Made by a program: the position numbers and the translations under genes
From: Massilia polaris
GTDB taxonomy: Bacteria; Pseudomonadota; Gammaproteobacteria; Burkholderiales; Burkholderiaceae_D
Assembly (NCBI RefSeq): GCF_012927275.1
Contig: NZ_JABBGG010000010.1
Span: 62,001 to 126,000 of the forward strand
Length of the DNA stretch: 64,000 nt
Direction: 5' to 3'
In this document: piece after piece, positions 50,234 to 59,556 of the stretch
Layout of the letters: each line of letters opens with the position of its first letter
How positions within the stretch are numbered: the stretch's first letter is position 1
Notes under the pieces: model-generated
What the model was told of the DNA's origin: nothing
The model's input: only the letters and a program-made list of their open reading frames with translations
Databases searched by the model: none

Positions 50234-50481
50234 TAGTTCTTTCGCTTGCGGTAGAGAGGCGGTTGCTGTTCCAGTTATGGGGACGACAAGGGGCATTTGA
50301 AAGCTGAATTTTTGAGCTCTTGCGATTTCAATAACGGCTATTTTGTGCCGTTGTGCAAAAGCCCCAATCGCGTCATTAACGGTCTAAATATGGTGCCCTA
50401 CAGAAAGACTTCCGGTATCGTTCGATATTGCTCCAAGTCCACACATCACGACGGTCGGCGAGCCCCAACTAGTTCCCCTCA

Positions 50482-50906
50482 ATGAAAACTTCGATCACGA
50501 CCGGCCGCAATTTCATGGTCGGTACCAAGCTGTCCGCCTTTACCCTGGCACTGATTAGCAGCATTTTTATTGCCTTTATCCTCTTCGTTGCACATACGAT
50601 GTCGGGTTCCCTCGAAAGAAGGGCGACTGAACTCGTCAATACGCAGGCTGAAGGCGTCGGGACAATGATCGACACGTTCAACCGCGCGCAGCTGAGCGCG
50701 GTTGAGAAGTTTTCGCGGGTGTTCTCCAGCCTGCTGCCGGGGGCGTTCTCGGTAGACGCCAGCCGTACCGTCGACACGGGCGGGAAGGAGTTGCCGGTCA
50801 TGAAGCATGACGACGTGGACCTGAACCTCAATTTCGAGGCCGTCGACCGCTTCTCTGCCATGACCGGCGGCAACGCGACTGTCTTCATCAAGCAAGGTGA
50901 CGACTT
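50482..50906 (+). pseudogene. 5' part of a chemotaxis receptor, cut by an inversion
   Basis: Encodes TM1 (LSAFTLALISSIFIAFILFV, about 17-36) and the start of a periplasmic Cache sensor (QAEGVGTMIDTFNRAQLSAV, then GGNATVFIKQGDD). After Asp141 (GAC 50902-50904) the frame runs into antisense DUF817 sequence and gives meaningless residues to 51102. The missing rest is at 54755-53169 on the other strand, where the frame begins exactly with [13 protein letters not shown]. Rejoined, the receptor would have about 670 residues. No ribosome site of note before the ATG. Confidence 0.88.
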
Positions 50907-51438
50907 AGTGATGGGTGAAGAAATTCGCGTAGATGAGGATGGCCACGGTCGTCGCCATCCAGTACGGCGGATGGTGGCGGATGCGCAGGTCGAACAGGCG
51001 CCAGGCCTGGACCACGTAGCTGCCCACCGCCGCGTACATGAAGCCCGCGAACAACGGCACGTCGAGTATCTTGGTATAACCGAAGTCGGGATAGCTCCAT
51101 GACCTGATGCTGCCCGAGACCTTGAACGCCTCAAGTGCGAAGCCGACCATATGGAACAGGCAGATGGCTTTCAGCTCATCCATCGTTTCGAGCTTCGAAC
51201 AGACCATCCAGAACTGGATGAGCAAGGCCACTGCCAGCAGCACGTCGTAGCGCGGCAGTCCTGCGATGCCGGTCCGCGGAATCACCATCATCGCGATGAA
51301 GAACAGCCCGACGAACAGGCATGCGCGCGCATTCTTGATGCCGAAGTAGCAGAATTCGAGCAAGCCGCGGCGCCAGCCGCCGATTTCTCGCGCCCGCATG
51401 TCCAGCAGGTGCACGTCAAGTGCGGAAAGGCCCTTCAT
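50905..51438 (-). pseudogene. 5' part of a DUF817 membrane protein, cut by the same inversion
   Basis: 177 residues with about five membrane spans: CLFVGLFFIAMMVIP, YDVLLAVALLIQFWMVC, LFAGFMYAAVGSYVVQAW and so on, matching the DUF817 family start (EFCYFGIKNARACLFVG). It ends abruptly at YANFFTHH followed by a TAA made at the junction (50905-50907). The continuation [20 protein letters not shown] is found at 54758 on the plus strand. Family function unknown; an integral inner-membrane protein. Confidence 0.87.
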
Positions 51439-51576
51439 GTAACCTCTTTACGTCAAGGATGTTCGATGTCGCCGGTGCTACACCGGACCGGGAAATGCCT
51501 TGACGTAAAAGTTACATTAGTTCACTAGTGGACGCACTAAAAATTGCCGTCACGACGTAGTTTTTTGCATGGTTCA

Positions 51577-52113
51577 TTACCACATCAAATCGTCCGGAAT
51601 CTGGAAGGCTGCGTATGGATCGTCCTCGTCGACTTCGTTGCTGGTCTTTTTCACACGCACGACCAGCGACGCATCGCGCTCGGCGATCTTGTCGGCGATG
51701 ACTTTCGGGACCAGTTCGGTGACGCCGCCAAGGCACACGATCACCAGCCGTCCGGCCATCAGGTGGGCCTGGACCGCCGCGGAAACATAGATGCGTTCGA
51801 TTTTGCTACCGTGGGTGAAGTTGTAGGCGACATCGCCATTGCCTTTGCCCTGGCGGTTCTGCTTGACCATCTGGGCAATCTGCGCGGCGATCGCTTTCTG
51901 CGACGCGGCCGCATCGCGCTGCGCATTCAGCTCGCGCGCGCGCTCGGCGTTCTTGCGCTGCAGCTCCTGGGCGGCGCTACGCGCTTCGTCAACGGTCGTC
52001 GTGCCGGTGCGGCGTTCGACCTTTTTCTGCTTGCTCTTGTCCTGGTTGACCAGTTTGACCTTGTTCTTGTCGACCAGGCCGGCTTTCAAAAACTGTTCTT
52101 GCAACGAGGCCAT
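51577..52113 (-). CDS. DUF2058 (YaiL-like) protein
   Basis: 178 residues from ATG 52113, which has GGAG 8 bases upstream; the frame opens at 52194. Starts SLQEQFLKAGLVDKNKVKLV, then a strongly basic/coiled region (QDKSKQKKVERRTG, then SAAQELQRKNAERARELNAQ). The C-terminal DUF2058 core is AYNFTHGSKIERIYVSAAVQ, then RLVIVCLGGVTELVPKVIA. Probably a cytoplasmic nucleic-acid-associated protein; function unknown. It lies wholly inside the inverted segment. Confidence 0.85.
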   Translation of the reverse strand: MASLQEQFLKAGLVDKNKVKLVNQDKSKQKKVERRTGTTTVDEARSAAQELQRKNAERARELNAQRDAAASQKAIAAQIAQMVKQNRQGKGNGDVAYNFTHGSKIERIYVSAAVQAHLMAGRLVIVCLGGVTELVPKVIADKIAERDASLVVRVKKTSNEVDEDDPYAAFQIPDDLMW

Positions 52114-52294
52114 GTTTGCTACTCCATAAGTAAAGGACGCCGGCGCGGGTAGCGGTCCCGGCCTCTGTAAAGGCGATAGCATAGCAAACTGCACACTCCG
52201 CCGCGCAAAATTCCCCGCACGGATCAGTTGCCGGGCAAGCGGGCGTAGCGGCTGCGGTGTATGCTTTCCGGTTAATGGATTACAGGCACTTCAT

Positions 52295-53164
52295 TTGAAC
52301 ATCACTGGTCCCGTCATCAGCTGCGTTTTCGCCAGCCTCAGCCTCCTCGGTGCACACCCGGCGCACGCAGAAGGCAACGCGCCGCTTGTGGAGCTGATCA
52401 ACGCTTACCGTGCTGCACCGCGCGTTTGCGATGGCAGGCAAGCCATGCCGATGACCCCGCTGGCCGCTCATCCGGCACTGGCCCGCGTGCAGGTCACAAC
52501 CGGCACGTTCCTGGAACAGGCAATCGAGCGCGCCGGATATCCGGTCGCGAAGGCCGCGGCGATCTTCATCTCGGGGCCAGGCGACGCGAGCGCGGTCATG
52601 GCATCGATCGAACGTAAATATTGCAAGACCTTGCTGAACCCTGATTTTTCCGATGTGGGCGCTGCACGCAACGGCGACAGCTGGCTGATCGTACTCGCCC
52701 AGCCCGCGCCGCTGCCATCGATCAATCTTCTTCCGGGCCCGGAGGCTGCCGGCAAAGCAATCCTCGAGGCTGTCAACCTTGCGCGCGCGGCGGCCCGCAA
52801 TTGCGGCGACCAGCATTTCCCTGCTGCGCCGCAAGTAGCGTGGAATGGCGCGCTGGGCGACGCGGCACTGGTGCACAGCCGTGACATGGCGGAGCACAAG
52901 TACTTCAGCCACAAGGGAAAGGATGGCCGTGCCGCGGCGGACCGTGCGCTGCAAGCTGGCTATCGGTGGCGGCGCATCGGCGAGAACATCGCTGCCGGAC
53001 AGTCGTCGCCCGAGGAAGTGGTGGCCGGCTGGCTGACGAGCCCCGGCCACTGCGCCAACATCATGAACGGCAGCTTTACCGAAATGGGCGCCGGCTACGC
53101 GATCAACAGTGCGCGCGCGACCGGGCGGGTGTACTGGACCCAGGTCTTCGCGGCGCCGCGTTGA
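52295..53164 (+). CDS. Exported CAP/SCP-domain protein
   Basis: 289 residues with a TTG start at 52295; a nearby ATG at 52275 is out of frame. Signal peptide to about AHPAHA. An N-terminal variable region of about 120 residues is followed by a CAP domain (about 155-285) with AVNLARAAARNCG, VHSRDMAEHKYFSHKGKDG, WRRIGENIAAGQSSPEEVVA, the GWLTSPGHCANIMNGSFTEM stretch and a final YWTQVF. CAP proteins are secreted and of varied roles. The catalytic-like His and Glu of the CAP pocket are present. Lies in the inverted segment. Confidence 0.88.
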   Translation: MNITGPVISCVFASLSLLGAHPAHAEGNAPLVELINAYRAAPRVCDGRQAMPMTPLAAHPALARVQVTTGTFLEQAIERAGYPVAKAAAIFISGPGDASAVMASIERKYCKTLLNPDFSDVGAARNGDSWLIVLAQPAPLPSINLLPGPEAAGKAILEAVNLARAAARNCGDQHFPAAPQVAWNGALGDAALVHSRDMAEHKYFSHKGKDGRAAADRALQAGYRWRRIGENIAAGQSSPEEVVAGWLTSPGHCANIMNGSFTEMGAGYAINSARATGRVYWTQVFAAPR

Positions 53165-53168
53165 TTTT

Positions 53169-54755
53169 TTAGTCGCGCCCGAGCAGCGCGACTGGCTTGC
53201 CGCCACGCGCGCCATCGAGCTTGAACACGCTGACGGATTGCGCCAGCGTGGCCGCCATTTCCTGCATCGACTGCGCGGCGGCCGATGCTTCTTCGACCAG
53301 CGCGGCATTCTGCTGGGTCACCTTGTCCATCGACACAATCGCCTGGTTCACTTCGTCGATACCAACGCTCTGTTCCTGGGTGGCGGCCATGATATCGCCC
53401 ATGATGTCGGTCACTTTCCGGACGCTTGCCACGACATCGTTCATGGTCTGGCCGGCCATTCCGACCAGCTTGCTGCCCGTCTCCACCTTGTCGACCGAGT
53501 CGCCGATCAGCGCCTTGATCTCGCGGGCAGCCTCGGCCGAGCGATGTGCAAGCGAACGCACTTCGGACGCAACAACGGCAAAACCACGTCCCTGTTCGCC
53601 AGCCCGGGCTGCTTCCACCGCCGCATTCAGGGCCAGGATATTGGTCTGGAAAGCGATGCTGTCGATCACGCCAATGATGTCGACGATCTTCTTCGACGAT
53701 TCGTTAATTTCGCCCATCGTCGAGACCACCTGCGCCACCACATCGCCGCCCTTGACCGCGACCGACGATGCCGACGAGGCAAGGTCATTCGCTTCGCGCG
53801 CGTTGTCGGCGTTCTGGCGCACCGTTGCGGTCAGCTCTTCCATCGACGAGGCAGTCTCTTCAAGCGATCCGGCCTGGTGTTCGGTACGGCTTGACAGGTC
53901 CTGGTTGCCTGCGGCGATCTGAGCCGACGCGGTGGCAACCTGCTCGGTGCCATCGCGAATCGTTGCCACCACACCCGCCAGCCCATGGCTGATGCCGTTC
54001 ATCGCGTTCATCAGCTGGCCGATCTCGTCCTGGCTCGCCGGCGTCAGTTTTACGGTGAGGTCGCCGTGTGCGAGGCGCTGCGCCGCATCGGTAGCGAGGC
54101 GCAATGGTTTGGTCACGACATGTCGGACGATAAAGACCAGTGCAGCGGCGAAACCCAGCAGTGCGAGTACACCAATCGCCAGCAGCTTGTTGCGCATGCT
54201 GGTGACTTCCTGCGTGACCTCGTCGACGAAGGCGACGCCGGAAATGGTCCAGTTCCAGTCCTTGTTGGTCTGGTAGACAAAGATACGTTCGCGTTCGGGA
54301 ACGCCCTGCGCGTCCTGCGGCGTCACGTGCAACGTGCCGGCGCCAGTCTTCAGGATTTCATTGATGTATTCACGGCCTTCGACGTCGCGGCGCTCCAGCC
54401 CCTTCTGCCCTTCCGTTTCAGGATGCACGAGGAAGGTGCCGAACGTATCGCCCGGCTTCGAGTCCATCACAAAGAAATAACCGGTTTCGCCGACCTTGAG
54501 CGACTTGATCCGCGCTTTCAGCGCCGCCACCTCGGACGAAATGTCGATGCCGACATACAGGATGCCCAGCACCTGGCCGCTCGCGTCCTTGATCGGCACA
54601 TATTCGGTCACGTGCGGCTTGCCGAACAGGACAGCCATGCCGCGGAAGGTTTCGCCCTGCATCAGTTTGGCGTAGGCCGGATGCTTGTTGCCCAGGTTGG
54701 TACCGACCGCGCGCTTGCCGTCGGCCTTCTTTACCGAAGTCGCAACGCGGATGAA
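53169..54755 (-). pseudogene. 3' part of the chemotaxis receptor, cut by the inversion
   Basis: Frame starts at 54755 with [20 protein letters not shown], continues the Cache sensor ([35 protein letters not shown]), TM2 ([20 protein letters not shown]), HAMP and a complete signalling domain with [20 protein letters not shown]. It lacks a start codon of its own; the first ATG (54660-54662) is deep in the sensor. Without TM1 a functional receptor is not expected. Partner half: 50482-50906. Confidence 0.9.
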
Positions 54756-54757
54756 AC

Positions 54758-55126
54758 TACATCGGCGACTACCGCTGGTACCTGGCGGCCTGCGCGCTTG
54801 CGCTGTACTTCCGCACGTCGGTGGTCTACCGGCCGCTCGACCGCGACCGCCAGATGCCGCTAATGCTGGGTTTCGTGCTGATCGGATTCTTCGTCTGGCT
54901 TGCCGAGAATATTGCTACCTTTTGGGGCGTCTGGCGCTACCCGAACCAGCTTGGCGCGTGGTCGCTTGTCCACGTCAGCAAGTGGAGCTCGTGGTCGCTG
55001 ATGGTCATCATGACGTTCACGATCGTCGCCAACCTCAAGCACGTCAAATCGAAAATCCACCTGGCCGAGCGGGGCTGGCAAAATGGCCGATGGAGCCGCG
55101 GCTCGCCGGGTGGTAGCGCCGACTAG
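54758..55126 (+). pseudogene. 3' part of the DUF817 membrane protein
   Basis: Frame from 54758 reads [20 protein letters not shown], then [20 protein letters not shown], a WGVWRYPNQLGAWSLVHVSK loop and TIVANLKHVK, ending at 55126. This is the C-terminal half of DUF817, with no ribosome site or ATG at its beginning (a start at 54821 would skip a membrane span). Its N-terminal half is at 50905-51438 on the other strand. Confidence 0.87.
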
Positions 55127-55291
55127 ACGCGCAAATTGCGTGATGATGGGCGGGAACGCCGTGCCACTTGTGTCATCCGGTCGCGCTGCCCGGACGTTTG
55201 ACCAAGCCAAACTCCCCTGTGTTACCGTGCCGATAGTTTAGGATTCAACCTTTTGCCCTGTTAGTCATTTTTTACGCAACGGAGAAACGCA

Positions 55292-56941
55292 TTGAAAAAC
55301 GCTACCCTTGTACTGTTGGGCCTGGCCGCGGCCACCGCCCAGGCTGCCGATAGCCCCAAGTTCGACCCGCAGCGCCTGTCGCACGATGTAAAGGTATTGT
55401 CCTCGGATGAATTCGAAGGACGCGGCCCGAATACCGCCGGCGAGACCAAGACCGTCAACTACCTGATCGAACAGTTCAAGGCCGCGGGCCTGAAGCCGGG
55501 CGGCGACCTGGCCAACGGCAAGCGCAGCTGGACGCAGGACGTGCCGCTGGGCCGTTTCGAGATCAAGGGATCGGTGACGTTGACCCTGAACGACGGCAAG
55601 AAAGCGCAGACGCTCAAGCAGGGCGACGACATGGCGGTGCGCGCGGCGATGAACGGCGAGAAGAAGGTCAGTTTCAAGCATGCGCCGATGGTATTCGTCG
55701 GCTACGGCGTGACCGCGCCGGAACGCAAGTGGGACGACTTCAAGGGCCAGGACTTGAAGGGCAAGCTGGCGATCGTGCTGATCAATGATCCCGACTTCGA
55801 AACCGGCAACGGCGATTTCGGCGGCAAGGCGATGACCTACTACGGCCGCTGGACCTACAAATACGAGGAAATGGCGCGCCGTGGCGCACTCGGCACAATC
55901 ATCGTGCACGAAACCGCGCCGGCATCGTATGGCTGGCCAACGGTGAAGAACTCGAACACCAATGTCATGTACGACATCGTCCGCAAGGAACCACGCAAGG
56001 CGCACGCGCCGATGGAAGCCTGGATCCAGCGCGACCTGGTGGCGGATATGTTCAAGCGCTCCGGCCTCGACTTCGAAGCGGCGAAGAAGCAGGCGCAATC
56101 GCGCGACTTCAAGCCGGTCGAGCTGAAGGGCTTGACGCTGTCGGCCAACTACGCGGTCGCTGCGCAGGTCATCAAGTCGAAGAACGTTGCCGCCGTGCGC
56201 GAAGGCAGCAAGTATCCGAAGCAGTACGTGATGTACAGCGGCCACTGGGACCACCTCGGCATCGGCCTGCCGGATGCCAAGGGCGACAAGATCTATAACG
56301 GCGCCGTCGACAACGCGACAGGCATTGCCGCCATGCTGGAACTGGCGCGCGTGTATGCAAAGCAGCCGGCGCCCCAGCGCAGCATTGTCTTCCTGGCAGT
56401 GACGGCTGAAGAAAAGGGCCTGCTCGGTTCGGAATACTATGCGTCCAACCCGCTGTATCCGCTGGCGAATACGGTTGGCGTGATCAACATGGACGCGCTC
56501 AGCCCTTACGGCCCGGCCCGCAACTTCAACATTTCGGGCAGCGCCAAGCTCGACCTGATCGACCAGCTGGTCGCCAAGGCGAAGCAGTGGGACATCGCCT
56601 ACTCGCCTGATCCGAAGCCGGAAGCGGGCCACTTCTTCCGTTCCGACCACTTCCCGTTCGCCAAGCGCGGCGTACCGGCCATCTCCTTTGGTTCGGGACA
56701 TGACTGGATCGACGGTGGTGTGAAGGCGGGCGAAGCGGCGGAAGAAGCCTACGTCAAGGACGCTTACCACCAGCCTGCGGACGAATTCAATCCGAAGTGG
56801 ACCTTTACCGGCATGGCGCGCGATCTGGAAGTGCTGTACGCGGTGGGCGCGGATCTCGCCAATTCGACCGCCTGGCCGAACTGGTCGGCGGACTCCGAGT
56901 TCCGCGCGGCGCGCGATAAAACGGCGGCGCAGCGTAAATAA
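55292..56941 (+). CDS. Exported M28 family peptidase with PA domain
   Basis: 549 residues with a TTG start at 55292, GGAG about 9 bases upstream. Signal peptide to AQAAD. PA insert at about 125-260. Zinc core: MYSGHWDHLGIG (His/Asp; Trp replaces the usual Leu), NGAVDNATGIAAMLE, AVTAEEKGLLGSEYY (Glu-Glu) and FRSDHFPFAKRGVPAI. Full set of ligands, so an active secreted aminopeptidase is expected. Distant paralogue of the 12288 enzyme. A strong terminator follows. Confidence 0.93.
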   Translation: MKNATLVLLGLAAATAQAADSPKFDPQRLSHDVKVLSSDEFEGRGPNTAGETKTVNYLIEQFKAAGLKPGGDLANGKRSWTQDVPLGRFEIKGSVTLTLNDGKKAQTLKQGDDMAVRAAMNGEKKVSFKHAPMVFVGYGVTAPERKWDDFKGQDLKGKLAIVLINDPDFETGNGDFGGKAMTYYGRWTYKYEEMARRGALGTIIVHETAPASYGWPTVKNSNTNVMYDIVRKEPRKAHAPMEAWIQRDLVADMFKRSGLDFEAAKKQAQSRDFKPVELKGLTLSANYAVAAQVIKSKNVAAVREGSKYPKQYVMYSGHWDHLGIGLPDAKGDKIYNGAVDNATGIAAMLELARVYAKQPAPQRSIVFLAVTAEEKGLLGSEYYASNPLYPLANTVGVINMDALSPYGPARNFNISGSAKLDLIDQLVAKAKQWDIAYSPDPKPEAGHFFRSDHFPFAKRGVPAISFGSGHDWIDGGVKAGEAAEEAYVKDAYHQPADEFNPKWTFTGMARDLEVLYAVGADLANSTAWPNWSADSEFRAARDKTAAQRK

Positions 56942-56954
56942 TCGCGGCACCAAC

Positions 56955-56987
56955 AGAAGCGCCACCGATCAGGTGGCGTTTCTTTTT
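56955..56987. terminator. Rho-independent terminator after M28 peptidase
   Basis: Arms AGAAGCGCCACC (56955-56966) and GGTGGCGTTTCT (56972-56983), 12 pairs with one G-T wobble and a 5-base loop, then a T-run. The T-run overlaps the stop of the convergent CAT-like gene. Confidence 0.9.
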
Positions 56988-57627
56988 AACTCATCAGTTC
57001 CGACAATTCGGCGGCGATCGTCTGCGCCAGGTGATGGATGTGGTAACCGTCGACGAAACCGTGATGCGCCTGAACCGAGAAGGGCAACTGCAGGCGGCCG
57101 TTGGCGCCATTCCTGAACTTCCCCCAGGCCAGCGAAGGAATATCCGGCGAGCCCACTGACGCCATCGGGTGCTGGATCGAGGTGAAGTCCAGCCACGGGA
57201 TGCAGGTGACGAAGACCTGGTTCTTGCACTCGCGCGGCGACATCCCCTGGTAGGTATCGTTCAGCCCGGCCATGCTGCTCGCTTCCTCGCGCGCCACCAG
57301 GCTGCGGGCGACGAATTCACGCAGCTCGTCCGACCAGGCGAACTGGGCGAAGTTCAAGTCGTGGTGCTGGTTGACCACGGTGTAGGACGGCGTAAGGCGG
57401 TCGATGCAGATCACCTCGCCCTCGAAAATGCGGTAGCGGAAGTTCTCCACTTTCAAGATGCTCCGCAGCACAGCGCACAGCAGCACGTGAAATGGCGGCA
57501 AGCCCTGCGCCTTGCACCAGGGCCGGAAATCCGGCAAGTCCATCGTGAAACTCAGGTTCACGGCCGGGCTGTCCATCCGGTTGAAAAGCTCAAAGCGATC
57601 GCGCCGGCGTTCGAAGTTCTGCATCAT
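56986..57627 (-). CDS. Chloramphenicol acetyltransferase-like enzyme
   Basis: 213 residues, the length of type A CAT. Landmarks: F-rich start NFERRRDRFELFNRMDSPAV, YTVVNQHHDLNFAQFAW, CIPWLDFTSIQHP and the catalytic histidine loop SVQAHHGFVDGYHIHHL (HHxxxDG). It would move acetyl from acetyl-CoA to a hydroxyl; whether chloramphenicol is the substrate cannot be known from sequence, since chromosomal homologues often lack resistance activity. The start overlaps the stop of the DUF4268 gene by 4 bases, so they are coupled. First gene of the AT-richer stretch to have clear function. Confidence 0.85.
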   Translation of the reverse strand: MMQNFERRRDRFELFNRMDSPAVNLSFTMDLPDFRPWCKAQGLPPFHVLLCAVLRSILKVENFRYRIFEGEVICIDRLTPSYTVVNQHHDLNFAQFAWSDELREFVARSLVAREEASSMAGLNDTYQGMSPRECKNQVFVTCIPWLDFTSIQHPMASVGSPDIPSLAWGKFRNGANGRLQLPFSVQAHHGFVDGYHIHHLAQTIAAELSELMS

Positions 57628-58631
57628 TGGACTAGAAGAGGCGGCGAAGTATCTTCGTTGAAGTTGGTCTGCGCTTGAACGTTAACCGTGGCAAGTGCTG
57701 CGGTGAACCTTTTCGGGAAAGTCGCCTTTAAGCGCAAGAGATTTTCGATTGCCCATTTTCTTATCTCCGCAAGTACCCCAGTATCGACATCGATATCGCC
57801 GTCACGGTAGACTGCAATGCGACACGAACGTTTTGCATCTAGTCGCTCCCATTTTAGTTCGCCAATTCCAAATTCGGCTTGGATGCCATCCCTCTGACTA
57901 TATAGCAGGTCGAATAAGGCTTCATTCTTAATCTTATCACCGCAGTCGATGTAGACTTCCGCTCGCACGCGGCCGCCTTGCGCGAAGCTGGTTGAATACC
58001 TGTAGATTTTTGAGTTTTCCGATGAAAAATCGTACCAGTTCTGCGGCTGTCCCGCCTTAGCATTTGTAAACTTGTGGACTGTGCGAAGTTCGTCGATCAG
58101 TCCTTGAAAGTAGGTTCGGTATTTCTGGCCCGTGTCACTGTCACCCTTGACGCCATCGGTGACGCTGACTTGTGCTTCGGATGGAGCACATATGGTATTA
58201 AACACATACGCTGGCTTGGAGTCATCGATGCGGATGACGGAGACCTCAATGGCGAACAGTTGTAAGCCCGCTTTGAGGTTTTGATTTAGGAAGTCGATCG
58301 CAGATTTGTGCTCCGCTCGAATCGCTTCTGCGATCCATACCACTACACCCGCGCCTAACACGGATGAATAAGTGATGATCTGGCCTAAGTGCTTATGGTC
58401 GGTTTTTCCAAACTGATTTTCTATGACGACGAGCCTGCCGGTAGAAAGGTCCCGTGCAACGATGTCGGCCGAAAAATCGCCAGCATTTCCCTCCACCGTT
58501 TCCAGATCGAGGTCCATTCCAAGCTTTTCCGAAATGACGCTCAAATTCTGTGCTAACCAAGGCGTGAAATGCGTGGCTTCCCCGGTCCAAATCTCGCGAA
58601 GCGCAACAAGTTGTATCTTTCCAAACTCCAT
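57624..58631 (-). CDS. DUF4268 protein with PD-(D/E)XK nuclease-like N-terminus
   Basis: 335 residues. About 45-110: SADIVARDLSTGRLVVIENQ, then FGKTDHKHLGQIITYSSVL. The Asp and the Glu-x-Gln/Lys spacing resembles PD-(D/E)XK nucleases of restriction type. C-terminal DUF4268 (about 170-310, YRTYFQGLIDELRTVHKFT, AEVYIDCGDKIKNEALFDLL, AEFGIGELKWERLDAKRSCR). Such proteins occur near restriction or defence genes, but activity is unproven. Base composition is visibly more AT than neighbours. Divergent from the NYN gene. Confidence 0.8.
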   Translation of the reverse strand: MEFGKIQLVALREIWTGEATHFTPWLAQNLSVISEKLGMDLDLETVEGNAGDFSADIVARDLSTGRLVVIENQFGKTDHKHLGQIITYSSVLGAGVVVWIAEAIRAEHKSAIDFLNQNLKAGLQLFAIEVSVIRIDDSKPAYVFNTICAPSEAQVSVTDGVKGDSDTGQKYRTYFQGLIDELRTVHKFTNAKAGQPQNWYDFSSENSKIYRYSTSFAQGGRVRAEVYIDCGDKIKNEALFDLLYSQRDGIQAEFGIGELKWERLDAKRSCRIAVYRDGDIDVDTGVLAEIRKWAIENLLRLKATFPKRFTAALATVNVQAQTNFNEDTSPPLLVQ

Positions 58632-58812
58632 TGTATTTCTCCGTTATCGTATTTGCGACGGGTACCTTCGCGGGCCTGTAGTATATGCGTGGCGCCACCA
58701 CTCAACGAAGAATAAGTTGCATAGGGACTTTCCGAACCAGGGAGTGAAGAACGTTGGCGATGGGTACCCTCAACCGCTAGCACCACAGATTCGCACAATA
58801 GTAGAGACTAGG

Positions 58813-59556
58813 ATGAAACCAAACGACATGCGCATTGCCCTCCTTATCGATTGCGATAATGTGAGCCACATTGCGATTGAAGGAGTGCTATCTGAACTTG
58901 CTAAACATGGTACGGTCAACGTACGGCACGCGCATGGCGACTGGAAAAGCAGTCACCTAAGCGGTTGGATCGAGAAACTGCACCCCAATGCAGTCCGACC
59001 GATCCAGCAGTTTGCCTACACGACCGGAAAGAACGCAACCGACTCAGCGATGATCATTGATGCAATGGATCTGCTCTACAGCCAAAACATCGATGCATTT
59101 GCTCTGATGACGAGTGACAGCGACTTTACCCCCCTCGTTATGCGCATTCTCGAAAGCGGTATGCCCGTCTATGGTTTCGGAGAAAAAAAGACGCCGTCAC
59201 CCTTCGTGCACGCGTGCTCCCAGTTTATTTTTATCGAAAACTTGATCACCAAACCTGAGGCATTACCGGAAAAGTCGGGTGGGTTATCCAAGTTGGATCT
59301 CACGCAAGACGCCGATCTTATCCAACTCCTGCGAAACGCTGCCGACCAGACGTCCGATATTGACGGTTGGTCGCACCTCAGTAAGGTCGGTCATTACATC
59401 TCAAACACAAGTTCGTTTTCTCCAATAAACTACGGATATCGAAAAATAAGCGAAGTTCTACGCGCAAGTAAGCTATTCGATATTGAGATGCGTCATGACA
59501 ATACGGCAATGTTCGTCAGACCAAAAGGCAACAGCTGGCCCAACGGTGGCGGGTAA
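58813..59556 (+). CDS. NYN (LabA-like) domain RNase with C-terminal LOTUS/OST-HTH domain
   Basis: 247 residues from ATG 58813; ATG 58828 (MRIALLIDCDN) is an alternative, and the frame opening at 58423 is rejected since it crosses the DUF4268 gene. NYN domain (about 5-140): LLIDCDNVSH, KNATDSAMIIDAMDLLYS and a FALMTSDSDFTPLVMRILES stretch with the conserved acidic residues of this PIN-like nuclease fold. C-terminal OST-HTH/LOTUS (about 165-240, INYGYRKISEVLRASKLFDI). Predicted RNA-cleaving or RNA-binding protein. AT-rich, stands opposite the DUF4268 gene. Confidence 0.87.
   Translation: MKPNDMRIALLIDCDNVSHIAIEGVLSELAKHGTVNVRHAHGDWKSSHLSGWIEKLHPNAVRPIQQFAYTTGKNATDSAMIIDAMDLLYSQNIDAFALMTSDSDFTPLVMRILESGMPVYGFGEKKTPSPFVHACSQFIFIENLITKPEALPEKSGGLSKLDLTQDADLIQLLRNAADQTSDIDGWSHLSKVGHYISNTSSFSPINYGYRKISEVLRASKLFDIEMRHDNTAMFVRPKGNSWPNGGG

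Follow-up and report, generated by a model that had tools for sequence, protein, structure and literature searches.

A 3.85-kb inversion that breaks a chemoreceptor gene and a DUF817 gene in Massilia polaris is most probably a recent microinversion through illegitimate joining

In Massilia polaris, the two halves of a chemoreceptor gene and the two halves of a DUF817 gene lie on opposite strands at the edges of one 3.85-kb segment. Does this arrangement represent a chance inversion of recent origin, a reversible switch acting on both genes together, or an error of the assembly? The original prediction for this locus, which had described an inversion splitting both genes, left these three options side by side. 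The window (the whole stretch of 64,000 nucleotides analysed here) lies within contig C2 (168,156 bp) of a 4.52-Mb genome assembled in 30 contigs. The features of the locus are as follows.

50482–50904, plus strand: N-terminal part of the Cache-type chemoreceptor (MCP), residues 1–141, first part of the Cache domain (Pfam, M. soli comparison)
50905–50909, no strand: left junction, MCP joined to reversed DUF817, 1 bp attributable to either (codons of relatives)
50905–51438, minus strand: N-terminal part of DUF817, 177 residues (Pfam, frame)
50907–54755 (3,849 bp), no strand: inverted segment (strand change in blastn alignments to M. soli and M. agrisoli)
51577–52194, minus strand: DUF2058 gene, whole, inside the inversion (Pfam, relatives)
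52295–53164, plus strand: CAP-domain protein gene, whole, inside the inversion (Pfam, relatives)
53169–54755, minus strand: C-terminal part of MCP, 528 residues, with the rest of Cache, HAMP and MCPsignal (Pfam, M. soli)
54754–54759, no strand: right junction, with bases also present at the left junction, 2 (or 1) from MCP and 3 (or 4) from DUF817
54758–55126, plus strand: C-terminal part of DUF817, 122 residues (Pfam, frame)

MCP is cut after residue 141, and DUF817, a family of unknown function according to the Pfam listing, is cut after residue 177. On the Pfam Cache_3-Cache_2 profile (299 positions), the N-terminal part of MCP occupied positions 3–114 and the C-terminal part positions 113–298, with HAMP and MCPsignal matched in addition on the latter. 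The two DUF817 parts corresponded to positions 1–150 and 151–237 of PF05675 (237 positions). In M. soli, the residues on either side of each cut are direct neighbours in a single frame per gene: 141|FIRV of MCP is contiguous at L076 4044/4045, and 177|YIGD of DUF817 falls inside one frame of 297 aa (L076 8001–8894). The MCP halves also abut exactly in all five orthologues examined (L009, L011, L012, L013 and L014). The predicted split of both genes, the opposite strands of their halves and the intact frames across the reversed junctions were therefore confirmed by the Pfam halves and the M. soli locus; the predicted edges, 50905 and 54758, were off by no more than about 3 bp.

The N-terminal part of MCP has kept its own start, and its 141 native residues are followed by foreign sequence up to residue 206, the frame being open to 51102. 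For the C-terminal part, the first ATG listed in frame is at 54,662. In the DUF817 gene, the TAA stop after residue 177 is a product of the left junction, and an in-frame TGA (54752–54754) lies closely upstream of the C-terminal part. A scan of 50300–55400 for sigma-70-like promoters found none (shuffle mean of 1.2). Both proteins are presumably non-functional now. The signalling part of MCP has matches at 18 or more further sites of the genome; a second copy of DUF817 was sought there and none was found.

The nearest named relatives, ranked by identity of the N-terminal part of DUF817, were Massilia agrisoli MAHUQ-52 (L075; 94%) and Massilia soli R798 (L076; 92%), followed by M. cavernae (L077; 80%). 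We sought the uninverted order in relatives and found it in M. soli for both genes and in M. agrisoli for DUF817, which is whole there. The M. soli genes, all intact, are arranged as luciferase-like monooxygenase, MCP, CAP, DUF2058 and DUF817, and reversal of the single 3.85-kb segment restores this order in the window. M. agrisoli has the luciferase-like, CAP, DUF2058 and DUF817 genes in the same order without MCP. In the blastn comparison with M. soli, the blocks switched strand at 50,906 and at 54,755–54,758. Judged from these alignments, the segment 50,907–54,755 (with 1 bp uncertainty at its left edge) has the opposite orientation to that in the ancestral order. By parsimony, the inversion would be derived and would have occurred on the window's own lineage.

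This arrangement was not seen elsewhere among the relatives examined. The two DUF817 halves were on the same strand, with under 60 bp between them, in all of the 80 named loci kept from 298 found, a set that may lack entries for the genome of the window itself or for very near ones. Besides the genome that contains the window, the genus set comprised 16 others (17 in all). Both DUF817 halves were matched in 12 of these 16 and were adjacent in 12 of 12; one further genome (G007) matched MCP alone and three matched nothing. The named loci and the genus set share species and are not independent counts. Within the DNA of the 80 named loci, the N-terminal part of MCP (E <= 1e-8) was present only in M. 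soli R798.

Some other differences from the relatives were observed around the segment. In M. agrisoli, no MCP was found in the interval from the luciferase-like gene to CAP, so at that locus it would have been either lost or never present. The gap between DUF2058 and DUF817 is ∼0.77 kb in M. soli (L076 7230–8000) versus ∼0.14 kb in the window, and the longer gap possibly contains a small gene. At 55269–57627, an M28 peptidase gene and the adjacent gene for a PF00302-family acetyltransferase are in swapped order compared to M. soli and M. agrisoli, their strand being unchanged; this is a second local rearrangement, directly to the right of the inversion. Further to the right (57624–59556), a DUF4268 gene (minus strand) and a gene with NYN and OST-HTH domains (plus strand) are divergent, and no blastn match of more than 250 bp covered this region in the comparison with 40 kb of M. 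soli or of M. agrisoli.

The junctions were then read against the ancestral order, taken from M. soli for both genes and from M. agrisoli and M. cavernae for DUF817. At the right junction, the remainders of MCP and DUF817 are joined flush. The two junctions together hold a net gain of 5 bp (2 from MCP and 3 from DUF817, or 1 and 4) and no base was lost, a count drawn from relatives that are ∼80–86% identical in DNA, the codons concerned being conserved. The reciprocal junctions share 0–1 bp of sequence. A net gain of 5 bp is what would be expected to remain from filling two staggered ends before rejoining in reverse. The duplications differ in length (2 and 3 bp, or 1 and 4) and so give no indication of one enzyme cutting at a constant stagger.

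The original prediction had also pointed to a near-matching inverted motif of nine bases at the edges (CGACTTAGT and CGATGTAGT). This did not hold up: seven of the nine bases match, the likeness includes the duplicated junction bases, and 155 of 500 random pairs of points 3.85 kb apart did as well or better, which is chance level. Local inverted matching at the edges gave the same picture, as the observed level was reached by 81, 56, 28 and 80% of 1000 random pairs for flanks of 15, 30, 60 and 150 bp, respectively. Among the 25 inverted pairs listed out of 153 (70–85% complementary), none had repeat arms at both edges, and a repeat-mediated inversion was rejected on this ground. A 14-mer from the left junction, with up to three mismatches allowed, had 12 matches in the window versus a mean of 3.2 and a maximum of 7 in 100 shuffles, none of which reached 12. 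Eleven of the 12 have two to three mismatches and are scattered off the inversion edges, none being at the right edge; these 11 near matches may be common codon strings of a GC-rich genome and were not taken as recombination sites.

We looked for decay of the broken genes as an indication of age. No internal stops were found in the aligned parts of the MCP and DUF817 halves. The two MCP parts had dN/dS values of 0.13 and 0.08 against M. soli and both DUF817 parts a value of 0.07, within the range of 0.06–0.24 obtained for five intact genes located inside or next to the segment. Changed codons were polarised by a simple parsimony count from which unpolarisable codons were dropped. For DUF817, the ratio of nonsynonymous to synonymous changes was 11/36 in the window versus 7/29 in M. 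agrisoli with M. soli as outgroup (Fisher p 0.79), and 7/28 versus 5/34 in M. soli with M. cavernae as outgroup. For MCP, it was 11/75 in the window versus 34/71 in the M. soli lineage (p 0.002), a difference in the direction opposite to decay. Pooled over 22 and 111 changes, the neutral, post-break share of the window lineage would be at most 9–14%, a rough bound that combines two branches of unequal depth. An old inversion with decaying halves was rejected on the absent stops, the dN/dS values and the polarised changes. As the halves have neither internal stops nor an excess of amino-acid changes, the inversion appears to be recent. It may be fixed or be a variant of the culture.

We consider it very probable that the locus arose by a single, derived and recent microinversion through illegitimate joining. 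In the most plausible course of events, the DNA would have been broken on both strands at two points 3.85 kb apart, one in the MCP gene and one in the DUF817 gene, leaving short staggered ends; the overhangs would have been filled in, and the freed segment would have been rejoined in reverse, probably via the Ku/LigD end joining that the genome encodes. On contig C23, Ku is found one gene away from a LigD that has both ligase and primase-polymerase domains. The staggered breaks and the pathway are inferred, and the case for Ku/LigD is circumstantial.

An artefact of assembly or library, with the segment reversed in the contig but still in ancestral order on the real chromosome, would account for the undecayed halves. 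It is nevertheless unlikely, because two reciprocal junctions free of repeats lie within one contig; the edges carry no good inverted repeat that could have misled the assembler, and a plain mis-ordering would not add short duplications at the junctions. Another possibility is that the inversion is real and was retained by selection because the strain benefited, for instance in culture, from losing the receptor or DUF817. The missing MCP at the M. agrisoli locus suggests that its absence is tolerated, and the other genomic matches to the MCP signalling part point the same way. There is, however, no positive evidence for such a benefit, and DUF817 is single-copy in the genome and whole in all relatives in which both halves were found. 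We regard retention by selection as highly improbable.

A reversible site-specific switch that toggles MCP and DUF817 together would fit the frames that are open in the other orientation, the undecayed halves and the excess of near matches to the left-junction 14-mer over shuffles. Conservative exchange by a site-specific recombinase leaves no gain of bases, whereas the junctions here have gained five. The genome has domain hits for serine (PF00239; 4), tyrosine (PF00589; 10, of which 1 is under the cut-off) and IS110/Piv-type DEDD (PF01548; 1) recombinases, the three families covered by our search, but none of these domains was matched on the 168-kb contig C2. The edge motif is at chance level, and no inverted relative was found among those examined. 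Thus, of the options originally offered, the recent chance inversion stood and the switch was rejected on edge repeats, gained bases, recombinase positions and relatives; we give it almost no credence. A two-gene inversion switch of a less usual kind, with a distant recombinase, very short or degenerate sites and small footprints left by each flip, is likewise exceedingly improbable.

The microinversion through illegitimate joining can be set beside known systems. It resembles microinversions by bacterial Ku/LigD non-homologous end joining in its homology-free reciprocal junctions, its few duplicated bases and the presence of Ku and a LigD polymerase in the genome; it differs in that use of the pathway here is inferred. 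In Drosophila, short duplications at the ends of inversions are reportedly a sign of staggered breaks. Such duplications are shared by the present case, which differs in that it concerns a bacterium and duplications of only 1–4 bp. Intragenic invertons have their edges within coding sequence. The locus is like them in being an inverted DNA segment with edges so placed, but differs in having no inverted repeats above chance, no conservative exchange and no recombinase hit on the contig, and its alternative orientation was not seen among relatives. Among the titles found on invertons and intragenic inversion, phase variation, DUF817, inversion breakpoints, LigD fill-in and small bacterial inversions, none dealt with this locus.

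The locus is an ordinary gene-breaking microinversion, and a clean recent case of one: a single rearrangement has broken two genes, its breakpoints can be read nearly to the base, and a sister species retains the ancestral order intact. It indicates that an inversion whose edges fall within genes is not necessarily a switch. If obtainable, the strain would provide a naturally occurring disruption of both DUF817 and a Cache chemoreceptor.
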